DNA of 64,000 nt, from positions 1 to 64,000 of the forward strand of contig JAABTQ010000002.1 of assembly GCA_011389745.1 (NCBI GenBank), given 5' to 3'. The notes below the pieces were generated by a model. It saw only the letters and a list, made by a program, of their open reading frames with translations. It searched no databases and was not told where the DNA came from. Source of the DNA: Desulfobacteraceae bacterium. Lineage in GTDB: Bacteria > Desulfobacterota > Desulfobacteria > Desulfobacterales > SKZT01. Of this stretch, positions 7,550 to 27,359 are shown piece by piece. Numbering within the stretch: position 1 is the stretch's first letter; the number at the start of each line of letters is the position of its first letter. Position numbers and translations under genes: made by a program.

Positions 7550-8992
7550 TTACTTTCCGATACAAAAGTTATTAAATATCTGGTCGAGAATATCATCTGA
7601 TATTTCAACACCAAGTGCGTTGTTTATTTGCTGAGCCGCTTCTTTAAATTCAATCGCAACAATTTCTAACGGTGCCTTGTTTTCATGACACTCAATAGCA
7701 TTTTTAATGGCCCTTGAAGCTTCTTGAATATTTCTTTTTTGTCTGAGATTTGAAATAAGGATGTTTTCCTGCCCAAACCGCTTATTTTCCAAGACCTGCT
7801 TCACAACCACTTTTTTTAATTCGTGTATCCCATCATTTTGCAATGCGGAAATTTTAATTTTGGTTTCCTTTTCCCAATTCAGGGGAATCGGCTGAATATG
7901 ATTTTCATCCACAAGATCCTTCTTATTGAATACGATAATTTTCATTTTATCGTGAATAATTTTAAAGATATCTTCATCTTCCTTGGATATTTGATTAGAC
8001 ATATCGCACATAAATAGAACCAGGGTTGCCTTTTGAATAATTTCTTTTGTCTTTTGTATCCCCAATATTTCAATGGGATTTTGGCTTTTGTGTATGCCGG
8101 CGGTATCGATCAGTCTAACCCTGATTCCTTCAATTTCAAATCCTTCTTCAATGTGATCTCTGGTTGTTCCCGGAAAGGGGGTGACGATGGCTCTGTCCTG
8201 ATTGAGAAGTCGGTTCATAAGACTGCTTTTGCCCACATTGGGTTTTCCGACCAAAACGAGCAGAATCCCGTCTTTGTATATTTGTCCTAACGCAGCACTT
8301 TCTTCCAATTTGTTTAAAGAAGACAAAATATCCCTTTGCCAAGCATCTGCTTTAATGAAAGATGCTTCCTGCTCTTCAGAAAAATCGATTTCAGCCTCGA
8401 TTTCTGAAAGCGACTCCATCATTTTTGATTTAATTTGAACCAGTTGGTCTTTTAAACCCCCTGATAATTGTCGTGTTGCAATTTTTCTGGCGATTTCATT
8501 TTCGGCATTGATAATATCAATGACGGCCTCGGCTTGTGTCAGATCAATTCTACCGTTTAAAAAGGCTCGTTTTGTAAATTCTCCGGGATCAGCGATCCTT
8601 ACCCCTTGTTTTAATATAATGTTCAGAATTTTTCCAAGTACGGCGCTTCCTGAATGTGACTGAATCTCAACAACATCCTCCCGGGTATATGACTTGGGTC
8701 CAATCATGGGGCACAGCATCACTTCGTCAATCTCTTCTTCATTTTCCGGATCAACAATTTTTCCATAATACAGATGATGACTTTGAATCTGAGATGATGC
8801 TATCTTTGAACGGGTGTTTTTCCTGAAAATACTTTTGCTTAATGCAAGGGCACTATTTCCGGATATTCTGATAATTCCGATCCCCCCTTTTCCTGGAGGC
8901 GTTGCTATTGCTGCGATTGTATCCCTGGAATACCAGTTTCTTTTTGAACATGGAAAAGAATATATTTCTTCTGATTTATTTAGCGGATTCAA
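7550..8992 (-). CDS. mnmE: tRNA uridine-5-carboxymethylaminomethyl modification GTPase
   Basis: 480 aa. DTIAAIATPPGKGGIGIIRISG is the folate-binding N-terminal domain. GKPNVGKSS (G1) near residue 250 and DTAGIH (G3) mark the inserted GTPase domain, and the chain ends with the family's CIGK motif. With MnmG it modifies the wobble uridine of several tRNAs. The start is a TTG at 8992 preceded by AAGGGA; nearby ATGs are out of frame. It lies downstream of jag, as in many origin-proximal clusters. Confidence 0.92.
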   Translation of the reverse strand: MNPLNKSEEIYSFPCSKRNWYSRDTIAAIATPPGKGGIGIIRISGNSALALSKSIFRKNTRSKIASSQIQSHHLYYGKIVDPENEEEIDEVMLCPMIGPKSYTREDVVEIQSHSGSAVLGKILNIILKQGVRIADPGEFTKRAFLNGRIDLTQAEAVIDIINAENEIARKIATRQLSGGLKDQLVQIKSKMMESLSEIEAEIDFSEEQEASFIKADAWQRDILSSLNKLEESAALGQIYKDGILLVLVGKPNVGKSSLMNRLLNQDRAIVTPFPGTTRDHIEEGFEIEGIRVRLIDTAGIHKSQNPIEILGIQKTKEIIQKATLVLFMCDMSNQISKEDEDIFKIIHDKMKIIVFNKKDLVDENHIQPIPLNWEKETKIKISALQNDGIHELKKVVVKQVLENKRFGQENILISNLRQKRNIQEASRAIKNAIECHENKAPLEIVAIEFKEAAQQINNALGVEISDDILDQIFNNFCIGK

Positions 8993-9046
8993 CCATCATC
9001 CCTTTGTACAGCCCATCAAAGCGGATTACCCTGTTTTGGTAAAATG

Positions 9047-9931
9047 CTATTTTCTGATTTTTTTTGGAAAAATAACCAGTTTCCGATAAAAACCATCCCC
9101 GATACTCTGTGTTCTTACACCTGAATCGTTTTTTAAAACCAGGTGCACGACTCTTCTGTCGTATGAATTCAATTGACCAATGGTGACTGGCTTGCCGATC
9201 CTTTTTGATTTTTCCGCAAGCCTTGTGGAAAGTCTCTCCAAATTGATTCTTCTGTTTTCCAGATACCCTTCTATATCGACGTGAATCCTTATTTTTTCAT
9301 AACTTTTTTTATTGACAATTTTTTCTACAATATATTGGATGGCTTCGAGGGTTTGGCCTTTTTTTCCAATCAATACCGCGGTATTCCCGCCTTTAACATT
9401 GTATTTGATTTTCTTATTTTCTTGCCGGACAGTTATTTCTGCATCCGTTGTAATCAGATCGACAATTTTTTTTAGGGCTTCTTCGCCTGCAAGGATTGCT
9501 GGGCCATCATCTTTTTTATCCGTATCCTCATCACTATTTTTGTCATCAATGGGAGCATCAGAAACATCATTATTAGGAGTATGAGAATTAGGGGTATGAG
9601 AGTCCTCCGTTTGGGTATCCTCAACACGATTAACATCATTTTCTTTGAAAGTTTCTTCAACAATGGACGCTATTTCATCGTTATCATTATCGTTTAACAT
9701 GCTTTGGGATTCAACAGAATTTGCATTTTCTTCATGTCTTTTGGTTTTCAGGTGTTTTGGTAACGTCACCCTGATTTTAGCCTTTTTTGTACCCACTAAA
9801 CCAAAGATTCCTGTTGAACCATATGAAATTACATCATACCTGAGTTTTTCCTCCTTGATTTTCAGGGTATCGCATGCTTTTTTAATGGCGGTTTCAATGT
9901 TTTTTCCTTCGAATTCCAAACCTGATGTCAT
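9047..9931 (-). CDS. jag: Jag/KhpB RNA-binding protein
   Basis: 294 aa in three parts: a Jag_N domain (residues 1-50, EGKNIETAIKKACDTL), an acidic low-complexity linker rich in Asp, Asn and Thr-Pro repeats (about 70-150), then a KH domain with the GKKGQTLEAIQYI loop and an R3H domain (NLERLSTRLAEKSKR...SYDRRVVHLVL). It is a single-strand RNA-binding partner of the YidC insertase locus. It starts 14 bp after yidC with a strong GGAGG site. Confidence 0.92.
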   Translation of the reverse strand: MTSGLEFEGKNIETAIKKACDTLKIKEEKLRYDVISYGSTGIFGLVGTKKAKIRVTLPKHLKTKRHEENANSVESQSMLNDNDNDEIASIVEETFKENDVNRVEDTQTEDSHTPNSHTPNNDVSDAPIDDKNSDEDTDKKDDGPAILAGEEALKKIVDLITTDAEITVRQENKKIKYNVKGGNTAVLIGKKGQTLEAIQYIVEKIVNKKSYEKIRIHVDIEGYLENRRINLERLSTRLAEKSKRIGKPVTIGQLNSYDRRVVHLVLKNDSGVRTQSIGDGFYRKLVIFPKKIRK

Positions 9932-9945
9932 AAAAACCTCCGTCT

Positions 9946-11601
9946 TTATCCTTTCTTTTTTGAAACATAGTATTGTTGACCCATGGATAGAAGGTTGTTA
10001 ACAAGCCAATAGAGAACAAGCCCTGATGAAAAGTTTATAAAGATAAATGTAAAAAGAATCGGCATAAAAGTCATTAATTTTGCCTGAGTGGGGTCAGCAG
10101 GAGCAGGTGCCATTTTTTGTTGAAGAAACATGCTTGCGCCCATAATCAGCGTTAAGACAGGTATGCCGTATGGAGGCTGCATAAACGGAATATAAATATC
10201 AAAATTAAATAGCCTGTCAGGCGCTGAAAGGTCGTTGATCCACAAAAAAAATGGGGCATGTCTCAATTCGATTGCTTCATATAACATTCTGTATAGAGCA
10301 AAAAATACCGGAATCTGCAAAATCATAGGAAGGCAACCGCCCATTGGATTTATTTTGTATGTTTTGTAAAGCGCCATTGTTTCCTGGTTCATTTTCTTTT
10401 TATCATCTTTGTATTTGTCTTTGATTTCTTTCATCAGTGGGGCTAGTTTTTTCATATCATTCATTGACTTATAGCTCTTATTTCCCAATGGCCAGAGTAT
10501 CATCTTCACAATGATCGTTAAGATGATAATAGCGATTCCATAATTGGGAATATAATCATGAATGAAATTCATCAGCCATAAACAAGGCTTTGCAATAAAA
10601 TCAAACATTCCGAAATTGATCGACTTATCAAGTCCGTTATTCATTTGATTTAAAAGTTTAAGGCTTTTCGGACCGAAATAAATATCATACGTATAGGCTG
10701 TCTGCGTTCCTTTTTCAATTTTTACTTCCGGATCAAGATAACTATTGTAAACTATGTTGTTATTCTCTTCGCTGAGAATCATTGCGGCATGTTTTATTTC
10801 TTTGGGTACGATACTATTGATGAAATATATGGTCTCAAGGCCTATCCATTTGATTGTTCCTTCGCTAAAAGGTTCCTTCTTGATATCGCCGACTTTAACC
10901 TCTTTCATTTTGTTATCAATTAAGCCGCTCGGACCTACAAAACCATAATAAGCATCTTTTTGTTCAAGCTGATTTGCCAATGTAATTTTCAATTGGTCTT
11001 CGAGATTTTTGTCGGATCCATTTTTTATCCGAATGGTCATAGAGATAATATAATTAGTTGGTGAAAAAGCATATTCTTTTATAAAAACAATTCCCTCGGG
11101 TGATTTCCATGAAAATGCAATTGTTTCAGGATTACTGTATACATCAATGGATTTGCCGGCAGCAGCACTTTCATAGATGACGTTGTTAAGATCGGAAATA
11201 CTCTTTTCCTGAAAAAAACACTGTAATGTTCCTTCTTTTAATTCATCAGAGATTAACTCCTTGAGCGGAGATTGCTCGTTGGGACTTTCTTTGTAGTTTT
11301 TCAGTACATAACTGTTAAAAGTTGCTCCCCTTTCTGAAATCGTCACTGTATATAATGGTGTATTGATCTTGGTTTCCCGGATTTGATAATCCTGGGATAT
11401 ATCCGAAGAATCACTCGATATTTCATCTCTGATTTGAGGAATATATGCCTGAGGTTGTTTCTTGCTTTGATCAACTTCAGATATTGATTTTGGTTCCTGA
11501 GGCACTGTTTCGAATTCTTTTCTGTCAACAAAAAAAACTTCCCAGAGTATGAATATTAAAAATGACAGTGCGATAGCAATAAATATACGAGCTTGCTCCA
11601 T
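9946..11601 (-). CDS. yidC: Membrane protein insertase YidC
   Basis: 551 aa. An N-terminal membrane anchor (IFIAIALSFLIFILWEVFFV) is followed by a long periplasmic domain (about 60-340) of the Gram-negative type. The conserved insertase core follows, with four to five membrane segments (NYGIAIIILTIIVKMILWPLGNK, GGCLPMILQIPVFFALYRML, FTFIFINFSSGLVLYWLVNN). It inserts proteins into the inner membrane alone or with SecYEG. An AGGAG site precedes the ATG. Confidence 0.95.
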   Translation of the reverse strand: MEQARIFIAIALSFLIFILWEVFFVDRKEFETVPQEPKSISEVDQSKKQPQAYIPQIRDEISSDSSDISQDYQIRETKINTPLYTVTISERGATFNSYVLKNYKESPNEQSPLKELISDELKEGTLQCFFQEKSISDLNNVIYESAAAGKSIDVYSNPETIAFSWKSPEGIVFIKEYAFSPTNYIISMTIRIKNGSDKNLEDQLKITLANQLEQKDAYYGFVGPSGLIDNKMKEVKVGDIKKEPFSEGTIKWIGLETIYFINSIVPKEIKHAAMILSEENNNIVYNSYLDPEVKIEKGTQTAYTYDIYFGPKSLKLLNQMNNGLDKSINFGMFDFIAKPCLWLMNFIHDYIPNYGIAIIILTIIVKMILWPLGNKSYKSMNDMKKLAPLMKEIKDKYKDDKKKMNQETMALYKTYKINPMGGCLPMILQIPVFFALYRMLYEAIELRHAPFFLWINDLSAPDRLFNFDIYIPFMQPPYGIPVLTLIMGASMFLQQKMAPAPADPTQAKLMTFMPILFTFIFINFSSGLVLYWLVNNLLSMGQQYYVSKKKG

Positions 11602-11770
11602 TTCACTCTCCTGATTTTGTGGAATTCCTTTTTTACTAGTTTACAGTATATAGAAGATATAAATTTTGTTAGCCGTTTTTTTTAAGCATAACAGGCGGGT
11701 TTAGGTGAAAAGTTTTGACCGGCTCATGGTGTTCTTTTTTCATTAGATTCGGATTTTTTTGTGTCTGCCT

Positions 11771-12010
11771 TTAGATTTTTTCAGGCACAGGGTCATAACC
11801 ACCCGGATGAAACGGATGACATTTGAGAAGTCTTTTTGCCGTCAGAACAAAACCCTTGGCAGGTCCGTGCAAATCTATGGCCTGGTAAGCATATTTGGAG
11901 CAGCTCGGATAAAATCTGCAATTCGAACCTATTACAGGTGAGACCATTGACTGGTATAGACTGATCAACGCAAGAAATATCATTTTGACCAGTTGGCTAA
12001 ACAGATTCAT
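11771..12010 (-). CDS. yidD: Membrane protein insertion efficiency factor YidD
   Basis: 79 aa from ATG 12010 ([10 protein letters not shown]), the usual size. The frame is open further upstream, but that part overlaps rnpA. Family residues are [20 protein letters not shown] and HPGGYDPVP, after one amphipathic or membrane helix. The start is one base past the rnpA stop, suggesting coupled translation. A 169-bp spacer without clear features separates it from yidC. Confidence 0.9.
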
Positions 12011-12011
12011 G

Positions 12012-12383
12012 TTAATTAATTTTTTTGAAAATATTTTCAAGAGTTTGAGACATCTGTTTTGAATCCAGTGCCAACACATTTTTTTTAGCAATGATGTTAA
12101 TATCTTTTTTCCCGGGTATAATACACCTGTTCAACCTGAAAAATTCTCTGCAATAGCGTTTAATTCTATTTCTTACGACCGATTTTCCAACCCTTTTGGT
12201 AACGGTGATTCCCATCCGGTTATCTCTTTTTTCATTATCCGAATAAATTAAAACAAAATGCTTATTTTGTACTTTTGTTCCGACTGAAGATAACTTTAAA
12301 AAGTCCCTTCGCTTTAAGAGCCTGTCCCTTTTGGTAAATCGTTTTAAAACCAATTTCTTACCTGCTAAAAATATTCTCCGCAC
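12012..12383 (-). CDS. rnpA: Ribonuclease P protein component
   Basis: The frame encodes 123 aa with the RNase P protein signature [18 protein letters not shown] and [15 protein letters not shown] near the start. It binds RNase P RNA and helps 5' maturation of tRNA. The start is uncertain: GTG 12383 lacks a clear ribosome site, while TTG ten codons later follows AGCAGG and gives a length closer to the family's. Confidence 0.92.
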
Positions 12384-12466
12384 TCAAATAGGCGCGTGCC
12401 TGCCGAATATATTACTTTTTTCACCTAATCAGAAATGATCCTAGTCAAATTTATATCCAATACTAA

Positions 12467-12601
12467 CTAAACGGAAAGACGTTTTCTCCCCTTAGCCCTT
12501 CTTCTTTTAATGATTTTTTGCCCCTGTTTGGTCGACATTCTTTTTAAAAATCCGTGTGTTCTGGCTCTTTTTATTCTGCTTGGTTGAAATGTGCGTTTCA
12601 T
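12467..12601 (-). CDS. rpmH: 50S ribosomal protein L34
   Basis: 44 aa starting [19 protein letters not shown] and ending [12 protein letters not shown], an almost consensus L34. It is the first gene of the rpmH-rnpA-yidD-yidC-jag-mnmE run. In many bacteria this cluster is next to dnaA; here the upstream neighbour is rng. Confidence 0.97.
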
Positions 12602-19802: not shown

Positions 19803-20465
19803 TTATTTAGAAGATCTCATCGTTCGCAGTTTAGCCAGTTCCCAGATATAATCGTATAAATGAAGTCCTTTACTTGAAGCGATTATTTCTCCATCTTCAA
19901 CACCGATTTCCTCAGCCATATATTCTTTCAGCAATTGAATGGCACCGAGATTGGCGGGAAATCCATTCCATAAATCCCATGACCTGAAATAGACCATGAA
20001 GTGCAGCTTTCCATATCTGATCCGTGTATCGATTCCTCTTAAGCAAGGAGGATCATTTAGAAATAAGGCCGCAGGATCTCCGACGGTCATATATGCCTGG
20101 TTGGTTCCATGACCATCTTCTTTGTACATCCGGATCACTTCGGAAATCTGAGGCTCTAAATATTGCCCATAAGTATAATCTTCATTGGGTTGTTTTTCAG
20201 CTGTCATCAGATATGGGAGGTATTCTTCGATATATCCCTCCGCTACCGGATTCGGAATGCCTAAAGCCGGGGGAATATCAGGAATCAAAGGACGTACGCC
20301 GGGATATTTTATCTGGATAGTAACGTAATCAAACTCAAGTCGCTTTTGTCCTTCAAAACTTCCTCGATCGATTACATATTCGTGCCCGTGATCTAAAATT
20401 TCATAAACTGCCTGAAACCATGCATCCGGTATGTCTCTTGCGGTAATACAAAGCACGTTAAGCAT
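19803..20465 (-). CDS. thyA: Thymidylate synthase, archaeal-type short form
   Basis: 220 aa, shorter than standard ThyA (~264 aa). DPPCLRGIDTRIRYGKLHF carries the catalytic Cys, and FRSWDLWNGFPANLGAIQLL the dUMP-binding region of the ThyA fold. The N-terminus (MLNVLCITARDIPDAWFQAVYEIL) resembles archaeal COG0207 members. It is expected to methylate dUMP to dTMP with methylene-folate. GGAG eight bases upstream supports the start. It could instead be a hydroxymethylase-type relative. Confidence 0.7.
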   Translation of the reverse strand: MLNVLCITARDIPDAWFQAVYEILDHGHEYVIDRGSFEGQKRLEFDYVTIQIKYPGVRPLIPDIPPALGIPNPVAEGYIEEYLPYLMTAEKQPNEDYTYGQYLEPQISEVIRMYKEDGHGTNQAYMTVGDPAALFLNDPPCLRGIDTRIRYGKLHFMVYFRSWDLWNGFPANLGAIQLLKEYMAEEIGVEDGEIIASSKGLHLYDYIWELAKLRTMRSSK

Positions 20466-20514: not shown

Positions 20515-24059
<3,545 letters not shown>

Positions 24060-24095: not shown

Positions 24096-24620
24096 TTACG
24101 CATATATCCATTTTCTAATTTCAGGCACTGTTTTTTCTTTCCATTCACTGGAAATTCTTAACTTAATAAAACTTTTGTATAAAATATTGATCAACTCGAT
24201 AACCTTTTCGAAAAGATAGGCTTTTTCCAACACGGCTCCCTCCAGTTCCTCTCCCGATTCAACATTACCCGTTTTAGGAACCTTCAAGTTGGAAACGTTT
24301 AAACTTTCCCCTTTTAAAATAAACTGCCATTGCTGGTCTCCAGCCGTAAAGGACAAATGAAATTCCGTCACAACGGCCCCTTTCCGAAGAGATAGCATAC
24401 CTTCTTCAAGCCCTGCATCATCACCTTTTATGGTGATAATTTCAACTCCTTCATTAAATCTATTTTCCAAAACAATTCGATTGCCGACCTCCAACGATGT
24501 CAGCTCCGGTACTTCTGTTTGCAGAAAAGATCGCTCTTTTTCCATTAAAAACCACAACCAGGTGAGAAATTCATGTCCTAAAAATTTATAGCGATTATAC
24601 GAAACTGACACATCCAACAT
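24096..24620 (-). CDS. RdgC-associated protein (probable C-terminal partner)
   Basis: 174 aa. FLGHEFLTWLWFLMEKE near the start resembles a motif I associate with C-terminal parts of RdgC-like proteins in related bacteria. It begins 3 bp after the RdgC-like gene, so the two are coupled. The rest has no recognisable catalytic motif. I infer that it forms one functional unit with the upstream protein; the role is not proven by sequence. Confidence 0.5.
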   Translation of the reverse strand: MLDVSVSYNRYKFLGHEFLTWLWFLMEKERSFLQTEVPELTSLEVGNRIVLENRFNEGVEIITIKGDDAGLEEGMLSLRKGAVVTEFHLSFTAGDQQWQFILKGESLNVSNLKVPKTGNVESGEELEGAVLEKAYLFEKVIELINILYKSFIKLRISSEWKEKTVPEIRKWIYA

Positions 24621-24623
24621 ATG

Positions 24624-25238
24624 TTACTCCGAAAATTGTGTGGGTGAGAGTTTATTCAATTGTTCTCTCTGCGAATCAGATAACCCTGCATTCAAGTCAG
24701 CTATGGTATAGGGAAAAAGACGGATCAGACTGAGCTGAAATGTTTTGGAAAAAAGTGTTTCAAACTCTTCATTGGCGGATTTCTGATTACTGAAAAACCA
24801 GAGGAAACTACCCTCATAATTCCAAATTAAATCATAAATCTTGGGAGTCGCGGGATATCGCCTTAAAAGCGTGGAATAAATCCGGTCCTTGACCATTCGC
24901 TTTTCAGTATTGTTCAGATATTTTCTTCCGGTTTCAGAGAGCATTTTAAGCATTTCAAGCACATAAAATTTTTTTAATACCTTAGCAGGAATACTTTTTT
25001 GGTCTATTCTGAGCGCAAAGACCAGGTAAGTTCCAATGCAAAAGGAAGACCCTTCAAATTTTGGCTGATACGGATTTTCCATAGATGTCCACCCAATGGC
25101 TTTTTCCGAAACATCGTCATCAATTTCCATGATCATGTTTTGCTTTAATTTTTTTTCCACGGTATCCATGAAAGGATCTTCGAGTGTGCCGTCAACTTTA
25201 TAGCAAGTTATAGATACCGAAGAAGACAAAAGTCCCAT
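24624..25238 (-). CDS. rdgC: RdgC-family recombination-associated protein (N-terminal type)
   Basis: 204 aa against about 300 in E. coli. GLLSSSVSITCYKVDG, EKAIGWTS, FCIGTYLVFALRID and PYTIADLNAG agree with RdgC-like proteins of deltaproteobacteria. RdgC binds double-stranded DNA as a ring and restrains RecA. The chain ends early and the next gene may supply the remainder, so this looks like a split RdgC. It heads the leftward rdgC-dnaN-gyrB unit. Confidence 0.6.
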   Translation of the reverse strand: MGLLSSSVSITCYKVDGTLEDPFMDTVEKKLKQNMIMEIDDDVSEKAIGWTSMENPYQPKFEGSSFCIGTYLVFALRIDQKSIPAKVLKKFYVLEMLKMLSETGRKYLNNTEKRMVKDRIYSTLLRRYPATPKIYDLIWNYEGSFLWFFSNQKSANEEFETLFSKTFQLSLIRLFPYTIADLNAGLSDSQREQLNKLSPTQFSE

Positions 25239-25299
25239 ATCAATCCTATGCTTTCTTGAAACGAATATTGTTAAAACCGGTGGTTATCTGAATTCTTCA

Positions 25300-25443
25300 A
25301 AGTAACTCCTCACAAGTCCCCCTTTAAAGGGGGATTTAGGGGGATTTTTAACCGGCATCAGTTTGTCACCCCCCCCGGCCCCCCTTTCAAAGGGGGAAGC
25401 AGTTACTTATGGGTTTGGGCTCGGCATGCCGAGTGGGATGCTT
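25300..25443. repeat. Dispersed element with AAGTAACT ends, copy 1
   Basis: AAGTAACT (25300-25307) and AGTTACTT (25401-25408) are inverted terminal repeats enclosing C-rich and G-rich tracts that can fold back. A tail like GGGTTTGGGCTCGGC follows. The same layout recurs at 54430-54517, so this is a small non-coding mobile or palindromic element. Confidence 0.7.
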
Positions 25444-25449
25444 ATAATG

Positions 25450-26084
25450 AGGTAATTCAGTATAACCATACAAATATATAATGTTTGTTGAAATGAAACA
25501 AGGATTTTTTCAAAGGGATTCCCACCCTGTTCTTTTTATTATTAATTTTATTATATAATTGTTTAATTTAATTATAGGTTGTTAATATTGATAACAAGTC
25601 TATAACTGGTTTAAATTTAAAAATAATTAATTTCTATCGTCGTTCACAAAAAGTCGAAAAACCTGTTTATTAAAATCAAGTTTTAAACCATAAAACGTTA
25701 AATGTTAAAAAAAGAAGATTTCCCTGACAATTTTCAGTTACATTTTTTTCAAAAGATTTAATTTTTCAATGGCTGTTTTTGATCTTGGATTTTTTGAAAT
25801 GGTAAGGTGAATTTGATGGGTGGTATTAAACAATTATTTAAATAGTTTCATATATTATAATTAATAATATAGCATTGTTTATATCGATAATAACTTTGTA
25901 ACATACTAAATTAAATAATCAAAACGACTTTTTAGTTATACGGTAAAAAGATTGAATCATGTTAAATACCATCGAGTTTTAGGATAAAAAAAAATTATGT
26001 TAAAAATCATCCCGATGTTTGGCAGGTTTTGAAAAACATTATGTTAAAATTGTTTAATGCACTAAAAATTGAAAGATATTCTAT
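25450..26084. other. AT-rich gene-free region, candidate replication origin
   Basis: No gene is visible. Long A/T runs contain two related blocks, TTGTTAATATTGATAACAA at 25579-25597 and TTGTTTATATCGATAATAA at 25875-25893, 296 bp apart, and ATGTTAAA four times (25702, 25959, 25997, 26041). The leftward run of dnaN, gyrB and the rpmH cluster ends here. Canonical DnaA boxes (TTATCCACA) are absent, so the origin call is inference. Confidence 0.4.
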
Positions 26085-27359
26085 ATGACTTTTATTTCCG
26101 ACTTTCATGTCCATTCTCATTTTTCTAGAGCAACAGCTAAAAACCTGAACCTTGAAAATCTTCATATAGCCGCTCAACTAAAAGGTATTTCAGTTGTTGG
26201 TACCGGAGATTTCACCCATCCTGAATGGTTTGAGGAATTAAAGGAAAAACTGGTTTACGATGAAAACGGTCTATTCAAATTAAAACCTGATATTGCAAAA
26301 CAATGTGATAAGCAGGTACCTTCCTCCTGTCGTTCAAGGGTTGCATTTATGTTGGTGACTGAGATCAGCAACATCTATAAAAAAAATGGTAGAACCAGAA
26401 AAAATCATAACCTTATATTTGTTCCGGACTTAGATGCGGCCGCACGTTTAGGGTCAAAACTTTCATCCATTGGTAATATTAAGTCCGATGGAAGACCTAT
26501 TCTTGGACTGGATGCCAAAAATTTGCTTGAGATTCTTCTTGAGACAACGGATCGGGGATTTTTCGTACCGGCTCACATTTGGACTCCATGGTTTTCACTT
26601 TTGGGTTCAAAATCGGGATTTGATTCGGTTCGGGAGTGTTTTGAAGATTTAACGTCCTTCATTTATGCAGTGGAAACCGGACTTTCATCAGACCCTGCAA
26701 TGAACTGGAGAGTATCGGATTTGGAAGATATGACCTTAATTTCAAATTCAGATGCTCATTCTCCGGCAAATTTGGGAAGAGAAGCTAATATTTTTGACAC
26801 GGATTTAAATTACGACGCTATAATCGGAGCCATGAAATCCGGGAATCCGGATCATTTTCTCGGAACTTTGGAATTTTATCCGGAAGAAGGAAAATATTAT
26901 TACGACGGGCATCGAAAATGTGAAATAAGTTTTCACCCCGAACAGACCCTTTCCCATAACAATATTTGTCCGGTATGTGAAAAGCCTTTGACCCTGGGGG
27001 TATTGTACCGTGTTAATGCGCTTTCGGATCGTCCTGAAGGGATAAAACCAGCAAAAAGTCACCCTTATGATTATATTATTCCTTTGGTTGATATTCTTTC
27101 AGAGATGCTCAGAGTCGGTCCTCGAACCAAAAAGGTTCTTCAACAATATCACTCAATACTCGAAAAACTCGGTCCGGAATTAAATGTTCTCAATAAGCTT
27201 TCCCTTGAAAAAATCGAAGAAGCAGGCATCCCGCTTTTAAAGGAATCCATCGATAGAATGAGAAAAAATAAGGTAGATATTGCACCGGGTTATGACGGAG
27301 AATTTGGACGGGTAAAAATTTTTGAAGAAGGTGAAAGAGAATCGTTGATCAACATTTAG
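26085..27359 (+). CDS. PHP-domain endonuclease Q-like protein (UvrD-fusion N-terminal half)
   Basis: 424 aa. PHP metal ligands are seen in DFHVHSHFS, GTGDFTHPEWF and SNSDAHSPANLG, with a zinc finger (CEISFHPEQ...CPVCEKPLTLG) near residues 285-305, as in EndoQ, which nicks 5' of deaminated bases in DNA. In many bacteria this module is fused in front of a UvrD helicase. Here a stop follows ESLINI, and a helicase scrap in another frame begins at once. The nuclease half may still work alone. Confidence 0.75.
   Translation: MTFISDFHVHSHFSRATAKNLNLENLHIAAQLKGISVVGTGDFTHPEWFEELKEKLVYDENGLFKLKPDIAKQCDKQVPSSCRSRVAFMLVTEISNIYKKNGRTRKNHNLIFVPDLDAAARLGSKLSSIGNIKSDGRPILGLDAKNLLEILLETTDRGFFVPAHIWTPWFSLLGSKSGFDSVRECFEDLTSFIYAVETGLSSDPAMNWRVSDLEDMTLISNSDAHSPANLGREANIFDTDLNYDAIIGAMKSGNPDHFLGTLEFYPEEGKYYYDGHRKCEISFHPEQTLSHNNICPVCEKPLTLGVLYRVNALSDRPEGIKPAKSHPYDYIIPLVDILSEMLRVGPRTKKVLQQYHSILEKLGPELNVLNKLSLEKIEEAGIPLLKESIDRMRKNKVDIAPGYDGEFGRVKIFEEGERESLINI

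Follow-up and report, generated by a model that had tools for sequence, protein, structure and literature searches.

The system by which bacterial origins are unwound consists of a DnaA-box, a spacer and DnaA-trios, as described for B. subtilis oriC (PMC8287927). The window analysed here, a stretch of 64 kb, contains an intergenic gap that is very probably the place where copying of the chromosome starts, and its layout resembles that of B. subtilis: one or two tandem boxes, a short spacer and an AT-rich flank with a trio-like triplet pattern on one strand, all beside dnaN. However, the box consensus here is TTATNAACA and not TTATCCACA, extra boxes are found at fixed positions of +124 and +141, the unit is duplicated in the genus, and dnaA is not adjacent. 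A divergent box consensus and a trio motif directly by the box are also features of Helicobacter pylori oriC2 (PMC8235120). In H. pylori the origin is bipartite and has a single unwinding module, whereas two units are present here, each with a box and a putative unwinding flank. The DnaA protein is a full-length member of its family (TIGR00362, Bac_DnaA/Bac_DnaA_C) with all domains and scores above the curated cut-offs. It differs from typical members in its recognition loop, which throughout the order is FNRYHATALHSI, with one residue fewer than the canonical form FGGRDHTTVIHA, FGG(R/K)DH(S/T)TV(I/L)HA, and in belonging to a clade separate from the dnaN-linked DnaA (DnaA1). The reading preferred with high confidence is that the gap is the chromosomal origin, that DnaA1 is absent from the order, that a paralogous DnaA2 initiates at the ancestral site, and that the origin unit has been duplicated in the genus.

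The sequence-only reading described an AT-rich gap of about 850 bp at the end of a leftward gene run. From the ORF layout and the gap sequence this region measures 846 bp (25239-26084) with a GC content of 0.29. It is bounded on one side by gyrB (20515-22941), dnaN (22941-24059) and two ORFs of 174 aa (24096-24620) and 204 aa (24624-25238), all on the minus strand, and on the other by a rightward gene for a PHP-type, TIGR00375-like protein (26085-27359, plus strand), which is the other flank of the origin in many relatives. The 174-aa product has no family and the 204-aa product is weakly RdgC-like in its N-terminal part. Both small genes accompany dnaN across the order; in some loci the origin separates them from dnaN, in others it is on their far side. 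Further left, ORF translations identify mnmE, jag, yidC, yidD, rnpA and rpmH (7550-12601, minus strand), the usual company of dnaA, and for this reason the site has the look of an ancestral origin region from which dnaA is missing. The product of 19803-20465, adjoining gyrB, is similar to thymidylate synthases of the methanogen type, with a score under the curated cut-off. No Rfam match was found in the part of the window from 20 to 30 kb.

Two related blocks 296 bp apart had been noted in the gap. They start at 25579 and 25875, the spacing is exact, and both are copies of one 41-bp element that is also found upstream of dnaN in relatives. Comparison of the gap across relatives located the element in 30 of the 41 Desulfobacterales loci examined, on the same strand in all 30. 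On an order-wide matrix copy 1 (25579-25619, minus strand) scores 27.2 and copy 2 (25875-25915, minus strand), which is also seen in the alignment, scores 34.8; the matrix was seeded on seven relatives only and its refinement set included the window, so these two scores are not fully independent. Over 2.4 million background positions no further site scored above 12.1. In the 3.6-Mb genome the core pattern is matched exactly at only two places, copies 1 and 2. They sit in a diverged tandem duplication of ~230 bp, for which the local alignment score is 34 and the top score of 200 shuffled pairs is 26.

The same-genus genome G002 likewise has two origin units. Their spacing is 1280 bp as compared to 296 bp here, widened by an intervening pair of HEPN-like and nucleotidyltransferase-like genes, of toxin-antitoxin type by eye (locus L080, 6008-6758). 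Two identical elements 492 bp apart are present in G050 (locus L111, oriented positions 1232 and 1724), and here the unit appears to have been duplicated recently and independently. Could the gap be mobile-element or decayed DNA, with its 296-bp spacing a product of chance? Chance repeats do arise in AT-rich DNA, and the gap holds a GC-rich inverted repeat (25318-25397) with a single near-copy in the rest of the genome (C8:10252). However, the conservation of the element in the order and its two copies in G002 contradict this explanation, which is barely credible.

It had also been stated that the gap holds no classical DnaA boxes. This is correct for TTATCCACA, which is absent from the gap, has its two exact copies in the window at 1549 and 5364, and has near-matches at chance level (23 vs 18.9 expected). 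It is not correct for the boxes of the lineage, which occupy conserved positions and for which the order consensus is TTATNAACA. On the minus strand the element consists of two abutting box-like words, the second of which is TTATNAACA in the consensus, followed by the AT-rich flank. Across the order TTATNAACA occurs 35 times in the 220 bp beside the element where 1.4 are expected, a 24-fold excess. A further box is found at +122-126 in 25 of the 30 element loci and an opposed box at +139-143 in 20 of them; the other 5-bp bins in these loci have a mean box count of 1.1 and a maximum of 9. These offsets suggest an oriC of fixed geometry. The boxes of the window's genus are degenerate, with ATATNAACA at the unwinding side and TTTTNRACA at +123/124, and were therefore hard for the sequence-only reading to recognise.

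The box of copy 1 is ATATTAACA (25580-25588, minus strand) and that of copy 2 is ATATAAACA (25876-25884, minus strand), with a second box-like word, TTATTATCG, abutting it. Both copies differ from the lineage motif TTATNAACA by one mismatch and from TTATCCACA by three. The window itself has TTATNAACA-type boxes only as one-mismatch variants (10 vs 4.9 expected), and in the whole genome exact TTATNAACA is only slightly more frequent than in the reversed control, and its count does not single out the origin. Four ATGTTAAA words had been reported, and all four are in the gap on the plus strand (25702, 25959, 25997 and 26041); the expected count is 0.18, and none of 500 shuffles reached four. Two of them coincide with the minus-strand box-like words TTTTTAACA at 25703-25711 (+124 of copy 1, an offset conserved in the 25 loci) and at 25998-26006 (+123 of copy 2, likewise a conserved offset). 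A weak box-like word, TAATAAACA, lies at +85 of copy 1 (25664-25672, minus strand); copy 2 has a counterpart at 25960, and the same-genus locus L080 has one at +84. Among the closed relatives, G168 has four boxes beside dnaN, and no TTATNNACA was found in the 5 kb fetched from G012. A simple link between the shift from TTATCCACA to TTATNAACA and a change of initiator was considered and rejected, because TTATNAACA is also present in the origins of genomes with DnaA1 only (31 vs 1.7 expected), where TTATCCACA occurs as well (9).

Nearest-neighbour stability over 60-bp stretches of the window is lowest at the two copies, with the minimum at copy 1 (25533-25592) and the second-lowest value at copy 2 (25824-25883). 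Both stretches are proposed as unwinding flanks. The AT-rich flank of the element, next to the box, is DnaA-trio-like. Across the order one frame adjoining the box is enriched in YTR triplets (1.15 and 0.94 vs ~0.4, sd 0.11), and frames 0, 3 and 6 are depleted. Trios were defined as at least three triplets with a middle A (complement T) no more than 16 bp from the box. Reading from its box, copy 2 has five consecutive middle-T triplets (ATA TTA TTA ATT ATA). No comparable run was found in copy 1 by direct reading, and its trios are weak. Copy 2 looks the more intact of the two units and, because of its better element score and its triplet run, is more likely than copy 1 to be the active unit, whereas copy 1 may have an auxiliary role.

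A mechanism can be proposed from the known DnaA-box/DnaA-trio system (PMC8287927, PMC8235120). The single DnaA of the genome, whose gene is on a different contig, would bind the boxes of the gap. One box abuts the flank, and DnaA bound there would nucleate a filament on the DnaA-trio-like triplets of one strand. The duplex would be opened at these triplets and the helicase would then be loaded. The boxes at +124 and +141 may contribute additional DnaA. The sequence-only reading expected an unusual architecture if this was the origin. The altered boxes and the duplicated unit bear this out in part, but judged by its sequence the architecture is a variant of the DnaA-box/DnaA-trio layout and not wholly new.

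Is the element an initiation site, or is it a regulatory leader of the dnaN operon that is bound by DnaA or another regulator? DnaA acts as a transcription regulator in other bacteria, which is in keeping with a leader, as is a common promoter-like motif nearby. In the window this sigma70-like motif (TTGTTT, 17 bp, TATATT; 25473-25501, minus strand), identified by eye, points toward the 204-aa ORF, the 174-aa ORF, dnaN and gyrB; a promoter scan did not call it. Counterparts were seen by eye in the gap sequences of many relatives, and in several relatives the element lies between the promoter and dnaN. However, in the window and in several other relatives the element lies outside the leader, because it is upstream of the promoter and past the 174-aa and 204-aa ORFs, and a fixed multi-box geometry with an unstable triplet flank is a pattern of the origin type. 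A leader function in place of initiation is thus very unlikely.

The absence of dnaA from its usual place, remarked on previously, extends to the whole window, in which no dnaA was found. The only copy in the 3.6-Mb assembly is at 27583-28923 of contig C66, beside a uvrA-like gene. The same separation is seen across the order, for which 194 genomes were searched, the named members being Desulfobacterales: dnaA and dnaN are apart in every genome where both are readable, 71 dnaN loci covering 429 kb contain no DnaA gene, and in closed chromosomes the distance between the two genes is 0.18 to 2.6 Mb. The sequence-only reading offered either an unusual origin or a dnaA locus that had moved away. 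Each is partly true, as the origin appears to have stayed while dnaA is elsewhere, but the dnaA found there is of another clade.

Has the origin moved with dnaA, leaving at dnaN merely a relic or a promoter region? The position of dnaA on C66 would agree with this, as would some public records that start at dnaA, such as that of G168. The skew of the genome's own contigs is not clear either. The cumulative GC skew of the window's contig, C12, has its minimum at 202.9 kb and not at the gap, and contig skew is not diagnostic; C66 is uninformative, and the local skew sign does change at the gap. Against a moved origin are 20-kb samples of four closed relatives. In G012 the sign goes from minus to plus on the dnaN side, between 4.32 and 0.1 Mb with dnaN at 4.42. 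It does so too in G168, between 4.74 and 4.90 Mb with dnaN at 4.815, and weakly in G150, and in all three dnaA lies mid-replichore, within one replichore. The GC-skew check suggested earlier comes out for the dnaN side in two of these and weakly in the third, but not in C12 or in G171, where the skew is incoherent. The dnaA contig is also without an element match above background (best scores 8.9 and lower). Skew and element coincide only in G150, where the skew is weak; G012 and G168, with clear skew, gave no score on the element matrix. That the origin moved with dnaA is highly improbable. The preferred reading, an origin that stayed at dnaN, agrees with the earlier suggestion of a candidate oriC beside dnaN-gyrB and draws on the order-wide element, the box geometry and the skew in closed relatives. 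G171 (CP070746) is a closed MAG that carries two DnaA2 genes as well as incoherent skew, and it is possibly misassembled or rearranged.

A tree of 49 Desulfobacterota DnaA proteins separates those encoded next to dnaN from those encoded apart, including those of this order, by a branch with 100/99 support. The tree is small and unrooted, so it does not distinguish a duplication inside the phylum from acquisition of the gene from elsewhere. The DnaA of the window's genome is outside the dnaN-linked DnaA1 clade and its locus is apart from dnaN. When the order was searched with a DnaA1 query, identity was at most 38% among the matches listed, which fell nearly always at the DnaA2 gene. An extra DnaA gene in G164 (C146:3408-4670) has the order's best score against this query, with 38% identity; it may reflect contamination, or it may be a second DnaA that was kept. 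By these comparisons the dnaN-linked DnaA1 is missing throughout the order, which accounts for the absence of dnaA beside the gap, and the remaining DnaA forms a separate clade, DnaA2, encoded elsewhere. Both types are present in seven other Desulfobacterota genomes (G226, G245, G280, G208, G294, G267 and G232). From the gene tree and the genomes carrying both types it is inferred that DnaA1 was lost and that DnaA2 took over, so that the paralogous DnaA2 would replace the absent DnaA1 as initiator at the ancestral site. A fuller scenario is favoured by a modest degree: the whole order would have swapped its initiator, losing DnaA1 and using a DnaA2 with an altered recognition helix at the ancestral origin, the genomes with both types would be intermediates, possibly with two initiator activities, and the unit would have been tandem-duplicated in the genus.

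A literature search, with most subscription papers outside its scope, found no paper that treats the oriC of Desulfobacterales or the occurrence of two DnaA genes in such bacteria. Neither the type of origin nor its proposed mechanism is new in kind. In the literature covered, no description was found of the order-wide geometry of the boxes, of the lack of DnaA1 together with use of a second DnaA clade, or of the unit's tandem duplication in the genus. Replacement of an initiator at a fixed origin is rarely visible, and the gene tree, the genomes with two copies and the conserved origin make this case testable. Chromosome records of the order that are rotated to dnaA would on this reading not begin at the origin. 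The Desulfobacterales are a main group of sulfate reducers, and a concrete oriC model for them would help in estimating growth by the peak-to-trough method and in designing origin-based plasmids.
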